A model generated the notes under the pieces. That model ran no database searches and was not told where the DNA came from. It was given only the letters and a program-made list of their open reading frames with translations. 64,000 nucleotides of DNA from Actinomycetes bacterium. GTDB lineage: Bacteria > Actinomycetota > Actinomycetes > Actinomycetales > Microbacteriaceae. Positions 11,697-16,018 of the stretch are shown in pieces. The stretch covers positions 242,822 to 306,821 of the forward strand of contig JAKPAC010000010.1 in the NCBI GenBank assembly GCA_029779645.1. Reading direction: 5' to 3'. The translations under genes and the position numbers were made by a program. Position 1 is the first letter of the stretch. The number at the start of each line of letters is the position of its first letter.

Positions 11697-13361
11697 CTAC
11701 ATGCGCTCGGGCGCCGAGACGCCGAGCAGGCCGAGGCCGTTGCGCAGCACCTGGCCGGTGGCGTCGTTCAGCCACAGGCGGGTGCGATGCAGGGCGGTGA
11801 CCGGCTCGTCGCCAGGCGGGGTCACGCGGCAGCTGTCGTACCAGCGGTGGTACAGCCCCGCGAGCTCCTCGAGGTAGCGGGCCACGCGGTGCGGCTCGCG
11901 GCTGTCGGCGGCGAAGGCCACGACGCGCGGAAACTCCTGCAGCGCGCCCAGCAGCGCCGACTCGGTGGCGTGGTCGAGCAGCTCGGGGGCGAACTCGCTG
12001 CGGTCGACGCCCGCCTGGGCGGCGTTGACGCCCACGTTGTGCGTGCGCGCGTGCGCGTACTGCACGTAGAACACGGGGTTGTCGTTGGTGCGCTTCTGCA
12101 GCACGTCGAGGTCGATGTCGAGGTTGGAGTCGGCCGAGCTTCGGGTGAGCGAATAGCGCGCAGCATCCACGCCCACGATCTCGACGAGGTCTTCGAGGGT
12201 GACGACCGTGCCGGCGCGCTTCGACATGCGCATCGGCTGCCCGTCGCGCACCAGGTTGACCATCTGGCCGATCAGCACCTGCAGGTTGACCCGCGGCTCG
12301 TCGCCGAACGCGGCGCACATCGCCATGAGGCGCTGGACGTAGCCGTGGTGGTCGGCGCCGAGCATGATGATGCAGCGGTTGAAGCCGCGCTCGCGCTTGT
12401 CGAGGTAGTAGGCGAGGTCGCCCGAGATGTAGGCCGGCTGCCCGTCCGACTTGATGACGACGCGATCCTTGTCGTCGCCGAAGTCGGTGGTGCGCAGCCA
12501 CTGCGCCCCGTCGGCCTCGTACATGTGCCCAAGCTCGGTGAGGCGCGCGATCGCGCGCCCGACGGCACCCGATTCGTGGAGGTCGTTCTCGTGGAAGTAG
12601 ACGTCGAAGTCGACGCCGAACTCGTGCAGGCTCGCCTTGATCTCGTCGAACATGAAGTTCACGCCGTACGAGCGGAAGGCCTCCTGCATCGCCTCCGGCG
12701 CGAGCGCGTCGAGGTCGCCGTCGTAGGCGAGCGCGACGCGGCGGGCGATGTCGGTGATGTAGCCGCCGCCGTAGCCGTCCTCGGGCGTGGGCAGCCCGAG
12801 GTGCGCGGCGACGAGGCTGCGGGCGAAGCGATCGATCTGGCCGCCGTGGTCGTTGAAGTAGTACTCGCGCGTGACCTGGGCGCCCTGCGAGGTGAGGATG
12901 CGGGCGAGCGAGTCGCCGACGGCGGCCCAGCGGGTGCCGCCGAGGTGGATGGGGCCGGTCGGGTTCGCCGAGACGAACTCGAGGTTGATCACCTCGTCGC
13001 GCCGGGAGTCGTTGGTGCCGAAGGCCGTGCCCTGGTCGACGATCGTCTTCGCGAGCGCGCCGGCAGCCGCGGCATCCAGCCGCACGTTGATGAAGCCGGG
13101 GCCGGCGACGTCGACGCTCGCCACGCCCTCCACCTGCCCGAGGGCGGCGGCGATCTCGGCGGCGAGCTCGCGCGGGTTCGTGCCGACGCCCTTGGCCAGC
13201 TTCATCGCGATATTGGAGGCCCAGTCGCCGTGCTCGCGGTTCTTGGGGCGCTCGAGCACCACGTCGGCGACCGTCAGCTCGGCCGAGCTGCCGGCTCGTC
13301 GAGCCTCGATGATCGGGGCGACGATGGACAGGAGCTGGGCGGCGAGAACGTCTGGAGTCAT
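11697..13361 (-). CDS. argS: Arginyl-tRNA synthetase
   Basis: [22 protein letters not shown]...[29 protein letters not shown]...[11 protein letters not shown]. Confidence 0.96.
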
Positions 13362-13470: not shown

Positions 13471-13543
13471 TGCCCCCGGCAGGATTCGAACCTGCGACTT
13501 TTGGTACCGGAAACCAACGCTCTATCCCCTGAGCTACGGAGGC
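13471..13543 (-). tRNA. tRNA-Arg (anticodon CCG)
   Basis: Reverse complement GCCTCCGTAGCTCAGGGGATAGAGCGTTGGTTTCCGGTACCAAAAGTCGCAGGTTCGAATCCTGCCGGGGGCA folds as a cloverleaf; anticodon loop TTCCGGT. Confidence 0.95.
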
Positions 13544-14608: not shown

Positions 14609-14947
14609 CTACTGCTTGACGCTGGGCGTCTCGCCGCCGATCAGCTTGAGCCCCACGATGCACCCGACGAGGCCCATGATCAGCAGGATGCGCACGAGCG
14701 AGACCGGCTCGTCGCCGGTGATCATCGCGTACACGACCGTGAGCGCCGCGCCGATGCCGACCCACACCGCGTACGCGGTGGCGGTCGAGATGTCGCGCAT
14801 CGCCCACGCGAGCCCGCCCATGCTGAGGATGATCGCGACCCCGAAGATCACGCTCGGCCAGAGCTTCGTGAAGCCCTCCGACTTGCCGAGCGCGGTGGCC
14901 CAGACGGCCTCGAGCAGGCCCGAGATGATGAGCACGATCCACGCCAT
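14609..14947 (-). CDS. sugE: SMR-family transporter, SugE/Gdx (guanidinium exporter type)
   Basis: MAWIVLIISGLLEAVWATALGKSEGFTKLWPSVIFGVAIILSMGGLAWAMRDISTATAYAVWVGIGAALTVVYAMITGDEPVS; four TM segments, SugE-type signatures. Confidence 0.9.
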   Translation of the reverse strand: MAWIVLIISGLLEAVWATALGKSEGFTKLWPSVIFGVAIILSMGGLAWAMRDISTATAYAVWVGIGAALTVVYAMITGDEPVSLVRILLIMGLVGCIVGLKLIGGETPSVKQ

Positions 14948-14960
14948 GATGACGACCTTT

Positions 14961-15004
14961 CGGCCAGTCTTGTCGCGCGCCGGGTACTGGTCTGCCTCGT
15001 CCGG
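14961..15004 (-). promoter_or_regulatory. Guanidine-III (ykkC-III) riboswitch candidate
   Basis: Minus strand CCGGACGAGGCAGACCAGTACCCGGCGCGCGACAAGACTGGCC, 13 nt upstream of the sugE ATG; keeps CCGGACGAGG, GTACCCGG and GACAAGAC blocks of the class, with a CCAGT/ACTGG helix. Confidence 0.88.
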
Positions 15005-15058
15005 GGGCCGTGTCGCGGGCCCGCGGTCAGTCTAGCCGCAGCCCGCTCCCGGCGCCGA

Positions 15059-16018
15059 TCAGACCAGGAAGAACGGGAGCAGCCCTGGGTTGTGCGCGTG
15101 CACCAGCACCGAGAACACGACGGCGTCGAAGAGCAGATGCACCGTGACGACGTATCCCAGCGAGCGGGTGCGCATGAAGATGAAGCCCTGCAGCAGCGCG
15201 AACGGGATCGTCAGCAGCGGTCCCCACGCCTGATAGCCGAGCTCCCAGAGGAACGAGACGAACACGATCGCCTGCAGGATGTTCGCCTGCCACATCGGGA
15301 AGTGCCGGCGCAGCAGGGCGAAGACGGTGCAGATGAAGAACAGCTCGTCCCAGATGCCGACGGCCCCGACGCCGACGAACAGCCGCGCGATCAGCTCCGG
15401 GGTGTCGACCACGGGCCAGTTGGCGTACACGCCGGAGGTGATGAAGTAGAACGGCAGGATCAGCCAGCCGAGCGCCAGCACCCCCACCAGCCAGCCCCAT
15501 TGGAAGGCGGTCCAGCGTCGGCCGCCGCGCCAGGGAAACCCGATGGCCCGGTCGCGGTAGCCGAGGCGCGACACGAGGTACGGCGCCGCCACCGCGCCGC
15601 CGAGCGCGAGCGTGAACCGCACGAACGCGAGGTTGTCGAGCTCGGCGTGCAGCGGGATCAGGCTGACGATGCCCAGGCCGACCGCGATCAGCGAGAGATC
15701 GCGCAGCAGGCTCGGCGGGCGAGCGGCGCGCGCGCCGGCATCGATGGATGCCGCAGCCCGGCGCGCGTGCGCCACGCCGCCGCTCCCCCGCCCGGCGCCC
15801 CGCCCGCACAGCCACGCCCCGATCAGCGCCACGACGAGCAGGGTCCAGCCCAGCCAGCTGCGCTGCAGCACGAAGAACGCGGGCGCGGCCAGGCACGCCA
15901 GCAGCGCCGGCAGCAGCCCCCACGACCAGCGCGGCGGCACCCACCCGACGCCCGCCGCGTGCGCACCCGGCGCGTCCGGCGCACCGGACGGCGCGGGGAC
16001 CCCTCGGGCTGCGTGCAT
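15059..16018 (-). CDS. CPBP-like intramembrane protease homolog (degenerate catalytic motifs)
   Basis: Multi-TM; WDELFFICTVFALLRRHFP at the EExxxR position; HLLFD near the C-terminus. Confidence 0.65.
   Translation of the reverse strand: MHAARGVPAPSGAPDAPGAHAAGVGWVPPRWSWGLLPALLACLAAPAFFVLQRSWLGWTLLVVALIGAWLCGRGAGRGSGGVAHARRAAASIDAGARAARPPSLLRDLSLIAVGLGIVSLIPLHAELDNLAFVRFTLALGGAVAAPYLVSRLGYRDRAIGFPWRGGRRWTAFQWGWLVGVLALGWLILPFYFITSGVYANWPVVDTPELIARLFVGVGAVGIWDELFFICTVFALLRRHFPMWQANILQAIVFVSFLWELGYQAWGPLLTIPFALLQGFIFMRTRSLGYVVTVHLLFDAVVFSVLVHAHNPGLLPFFLV

Follow-up and report, generated by a model that had tools for sequence, protein, structure and literature searches.

A guanidine-III riboswitch predicted to act as a translational ON switch for a Gdx-type exporter gene in a member of the Microbacteriaceae

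The DNA described here is a stretch of 64,000 nucleotides (nt) from an actinomycete of the family Microbacteriaceae (contig JAKPAC010000010.1), called the window in the following, which carries on its minus strand a guanidine-III (ykkC-III) riboswitch in the approximately 75-nt 5′ leader of gdx, a gene of the small multidrug resistance (SMR) family. In all likelihood the RNA is a translational ON switch, which would bind guanidinium and allow the synthesis of a guanidinium exporter. The case is built on the identity of the aptamer and of the gene, on helices that covary across relatives, and on the conservation of a hairpin that competes with the aptamer.

The guanidine-III family of Rfam, RF01763, matches the window at 15025..14959 of the minus strand with 43.0 bits (cmscan; gathering score 36 bits) and over the full length of the model (positions 1–67 of 67). 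The E-value is 1.3e-5 for the window against 4227 Rfam families and 1.1e-7 when the single family is searched over the whole genome, so that the match lies well beyond chance. An earlier note, made from the letters of the window, had put forward a guanidine-III candidate and a covariance-model search as the check, and the search bears it out. Its sequence, CCGGACGAGGCAGACCAGTACCCGGCGCGCGACAAGACTGGCC, is the exact minus-strand reading of 43 nt at 15004..14962, and its low coordinate, 14961, lay one base too far, the true end being 14962. The Rfam match also takes in a 5′ hairpin that is absent from the note. It is the single match of the family in the 2.34-Mb assembly (99.94% complete), which holds no second or tandem copy; in the window, the sole other Rfam match is a tRNA, and no guanidine-I, -II, or -IV riboswitch reaches the cut-off. 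The parts of the aptamer are as follows:

14959..15025, minus strand: guanidine-III (ykkC-III) riboswitch aptamer, the full RF01763 match
15005..15022, minus strand: 5′ hairpin GGGCC/GGCCC of the Rfam model (stem 15022..15018 with 15009..15005), from the alignment; GGGCC...GGCCC is kept in the closest relative, L248
15001..15004, minus strand: 5′ arm of the P2 pseudoknot, CCGG, partner 14983..14980, from pair counts in the family
14980..14983, minus strand: 3′ arm of the P2 pseudoknot, CCGG, from pair counts in the family
14986..14992, minus strand: 5′ arm of P1, GACCAGU, with the core CCAGU at 14990..14986 and A14991 opposite C14963 as a mismatch
14962..14968, minus strand: 3′ arm of P1, ACUGGCC, common to the aptamer and the alternative hairpin

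Guanidine-III RNAs occur in the 5′ untranslated region of SMR/emrE or speB-type genes, and their ACGA is perfectly conserved (PMC2864571). The window aptamer contains both ACGA and the conserved GACAAGAC core, and the SMR gene begins 11 nt past the Rfam match, which places the RNA in a 5′ untranslated region of this kind. P2 is perfectly paired, and P1 consists of a perfect core of five base pairs (bp) and one A.C mismatch. The window element is a well-supported new example of an already known kind of riboswitch, and guanidinium is its predicted ligand.

Among 200 loci of the family, the arms of P2 read CCGG/CCGG at 150, GCGG/CCGC at 43, CCCG/CGGG at 4, and CTGG/CCAG at 1, and pair 3 of P1 is A-U at 175 and C-G at 22, while pair 5 is of several types; these counts are of related sequences and not of independent events. 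The varied pairings amount to compensatory changes in both helices. The exchange of GCCGU/ACGGC for CCAGU/ACUGG, which the earlier note had pointed out, is real, as both types of P1 arm are found among these loci.

The leader downstream of the aptamer folds into a second structure, which uses the same P1 arm:

14951..14969, minus strand: alternative (ligand-free) hairpin GAC.GGCC-GAAA-GGUC-GUC, from predicted folding, holding the GG of the Shine-Dalgarno sequence
14956..14960, minus strand: Shine-Dalgarno-like AAAGG, read from the sequence, 8 nt ahead of the ATG

When the leader is folded freely, the Shine-Dalgarno region is paired with the 3′ arm of P1 (14969..14951, −8.9 kcal/mol, z −2.4), and the unpaired probability of both G of AAAGG is 0.00. 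It rises to 0.47 and 0.32 when P1 is forced, and is 0.25 and 0.18 when the arms of P2 are reserved as well. Eight close relatives share a 5-bp version of the hairpin, GGUCC-NNNN-GGACC, which is 97.5% paired and includes one compensatory pair; in a sliding control, pairing drops to no more than 60%. Across 188 loci, the stretch between GAC and the start codon folds more stably than shuffled versions of itself (mean z −1.7), and at 90% of these loci the downstream leader pairs with four or more nt of the P1 3′ arm. Because the arm pairs with the Shine-Dalgarno region, aptamer and Shine-Dalgarno region compete for it, and this competition points to a translational ON switch. Exposure of the Shine-Dalgarno sequence upon binding has also been predicted for guanidine-III riboswitches (PMC12186494).

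The earlier note had suggested translational control, which is favoured by the conserved hairpin that sequesters AAAGG and by the lack of a terminator-like T run. Control of transcription through termination or antitermination, as used by the guanidine-I and guanidine-IV riboswitches (PMC12186494), is highly improbable here, since no T run follows any hairpin from 15022 to 14945 and 14 nt separate the end of the aptamer core from the ATG. Termination in the leader was rejected for want of a T run. An unlikely alternative is that the RNA works mainly via the stability of the mRNA, the guanidinium-bound pseudoknot blocking the scanning of RNase E and the exposure of the Shine-Dalgarno sequence being secondary. 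RNase E-linked mRNA stability has been described as a further layer (PMC12186494), and the aptamer lies where the transcript is predicted to begin, a position at which a stable fold could bar entry. Nevertheless, that the P1 3′ arm and the Shine-Dalgarno region compete is conserved; such competition is needed by translational control and would be superfluous for control of stability, and the two modes are compatible and do not exclude each other.

Several points weigh against a translational guanidine-III switch. With 43 bits, the match is one of the lowest-scoring in the genus Microbacterium, and P1 of the window has just five uninterrupted pairs plus the A.C mismatch. The 12 closest relatives give no covariation support, as P1 and P2 hardly vary among them, and the alternative hairpin covaries only modestly, its level being reached by 69 of 500 shuffles. 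The switching energies are rough as well, because ViennaRNA was used without scoring of pseudoknots.

The translational switch would work in the following way. An extended −10 promoter (G-C-TAGACT) would start the leader just ahead of the aptamer. As long as guanidinium is absent, the P1 3′ arm would pair downstream with the Shine-Dalgarno region, locking its GG in the GAAA-capped hairpin. Guanidinium would stabilise the P1/P2 pseudoknot, so that the arm is reclaimed by the aptamer and the ribosome-binding site is freed. Gdx would then be made and would carry guanidinium out of the cell, with protons entering in exchange.

The gene behind the RNA encodes a protein of 112 amino acids (aa):

14609..14947, minus strand: gdx, predicted guanidinium exporter of the SMR family, ATG at 14947..14945

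The product contains the SMR domain PF00893 of Pfam (E 1.4e-20, 74 bits, cut-off 23.7). Compared with solved structures, it matches best the 6wk5 group, which we take to be Gdx-Clo, with 70 bits, and the top EmrE-type entry reaches 37 bits. All five Gdx binding-site residues that were checked, E13, W16, S42, Y59, and W62, are present, and the Gdx residues are kept in all 145 single-copy SMR proteins linked to the riboswitch and in both members of 43 SMR pairs, save for one gap at position 62. The product falls short of the cut-off of the NCBIfam SugE equivalog PRK11431 (88.1 vs 126 bits), so “Gdx-type” is the safer name; of the label SugE/Gdx given in the earlier note, the second half stands on the binding-site residues, and the first is not claimed in the strict NCBI sense.

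The RNA and the exporter travel together. RF01763 matches are found in 64 of 99 Microbacterium genomes, in 148 of 300 genomes of the family, covering 54 of the 85 sampled genera of the Microbacteriaceae, and in 178 of 396 genomes of the class. Among the 99 Microbacterium genomes, 63 have both the RNA and the Gdx protein, 32 have neither, 1 has the RNA alone, and 3 have the protein alone. Among named relatives, the exporter is closest to that of L248, an actinobacterial metagenome-assembled genome (88% identical). Of the 80 named SMR relatives that are nearest, about 70 or more have the motif immediately upstream of the gene; the figure derives from a simple pattern that matched 73 times, including at least one spurious match, and that overlooked two true ones. 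At one locus (L178, genome G077) the guanidine-III RNA has no SMR gene downstream and none was found in that genome, which may mean that the riboswitch is an orphan or that the gene has been lost.

The Gdx residues, together with the fact that RNA and gene almost always occur jointly, favour export of guanidinium over that of generic quaternary ammonium compounds, as the earlier note had proposed. It is very improbable, even more so than control by termination, that the protein is a generic quaternary-ammonium (Qac-type) pump next to a decayed or unrelated RNA. Many Qac models of NCBIfam do score, weakly and below their cut-offs, and Gdx proteins are able to carry hydrophobic non-natural substrates (PMC7695847). 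Against such a pump stand W16, reported to be conserved in Gdx and Gly or Ala in Qac proteins (PMC7695847), the 70 bits for Gdx-Clo against 37 for the EmrE-type entry, and the intact core of the aptamer. Very probably, the SMR gene encodes a guanidinium exporter under the control of guanidine, rather than a disinfectant-resistance protein.

At 43 loci of the family (e.g., L139, L144, and L181), two adjacent SMR genes follow the RNA, mostly with a GCGG/CCGC P2. In the second gene, position 10 is often Ala or Ser in place of Gly, which suggests a heterodimeric exporter.

The region upstream of the aptamer has its own conserved elements, of which the window has the following:

15029..15034, minus strand: −10 element TAGACT, the hexamer starting 30 nt ahead of P2, with a conserved G two bases upstream (15036)
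15043..15061, minus strand: degenerate remnant of a direct repeat, 57 nt ahead of P2, weak in the window, with 7 of 12 fixed bases kept

Most relatives have TANNNT 30–31 nt ahead of P2, where the window has TAGACT, and a G at −2 before the hexamer occurs in 84% of 135 representatives; the transcript is predicted to start just ahead of the aptamer. When 135 non-redundant loci are aligned on the −10 element, information is concentrated in the blocks TGCNCAGG (−28..−21) and TG(C/A)(C/T)CAGG (−17..−10), plus the G at −2, and their flanks have essentially none. An 11-bp direct repeat, TGNNCAGG-N3-TGNNCAGG, is found at 110 of the 200 loci with two or fewer mismatches out of 12 (1.5 expected), upstream of guanidine-III RNAs such as those of L004, L007, and L249, and also ahead of a locus with a different partner gene of the CBU_0592 type (L146) and of the paired-SMR loci L129, L144, L166, and L169. 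The exact pattern of repeat plus −10 element has 16 sites in the 99 genomes of the genus, of which 15 belong to a guanidine-III promoter, and the reversed pattern has 0. Across the 300 genomes of the family there are 26 distinct sites, 21 of which lie at guanidine-III loci; the remaining five do not exceed the reversed-pattern control. A general regulon for the repeat is unsupported, as exact matches across genomes are almost confined to guanidine-III loci.

An 11-bp direct repeat over the −35 region and spacer, combined with an extended −10 element, resembles a class II activator site of the PHO-box kind, and the repeat is a candidate site for a dedicated regulator. It is conceivable, though we hold it only tentatively, that the guanidine exporter of the Microbacteriaceae is under double control, by the riboswitch and by a dedicated DNA-binding regulator at this repeat; such a regulator, were it to sense guanidine, would be the first transcription factor of that sort. 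The repeat is more a feature of the family than of the window, because the window copy is degenerate (about 2.5% of positions in its locus match equally well, with 7 of 12 fixed bases), L248 has no good copy, and none was seen at the corresponding place in 30 class-level loci.

At about ten loci of the family, the guanidine-III RNA precedes a membrane protein of 82–105 aa instead of an SMR gene (L083, L098, L110, L134, L146, L158, L160, L161, L172, and L173, the first three being assigned solely by their first codons and the type of aptamer). Two representatives of the protein exceed the cut-off of the NCBIfam family CBU_0592 (38 vs 25 bits), and a Pfam search gave no match. Six of the loci (L146, L158, L160, L161, L172, and L173) have a changed core, like GACGACGAC in place of GACAAGAC, and a class-level locus, L220, matches the CBU_0592-type protein too. 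CBU_0592 is not named in any paper that a literature search found, a set that did not include the guanidine-III validation paper.

The tRNA of the window (13471..13543, minus strand) has CCG in its anticodon region and is probably a tRNA for arginine. It lies slightly upstream of the open reading frame 11697..13361 (minus strand), which looks like arginyl-tRNA synthetase.

In terms of annotation, the matter is settled in favour of a very probable guanidinium exporter, and the comparative set yields an expression platform that can be tested, in which the 3′ arm of P1 is common to the aptamer and to the hairpin sequestering the Shine-Dalgarno sequence. Two leads extend beyond the window, namely an element of the promoter that is found at almost no loci other than those of guanidine-III, and another family of membrane proteins encoded behind guanidine-III RNAs; the promoter repeat and the CBU_0592-type partner matter more than the window's own riboswitch.

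Among known systems, the guanidine-III aptamer of Thermobifida fusca has the same core (CGGACGAGG, GUACCCGG, and GACAAGAC), the same P2 pseudoknot and P1 helix, and the same placement ahead of an SMR gene, whereas the pairs of P1 differ by compensatory change, P1 of the window being a 5-bp core with an A.C mismatch, and the platform of the window is a GAAA-capped hairpin with a short Shine-Dalgarno sequence. Gdx-Clo is the nearest solved structure to the window protein, which keeps its E13, W16, S42, Y59, and W62 but has diverged in sequence and remains below the SugE equivalog cut-off (88 vs 126 bits). The guanidine-I, -II, and -IV riboswitches have a common ligand with guanidine-III and often common exporter genes (PMC12186494), but their folds are unrelated, and I and IV act on transcription.
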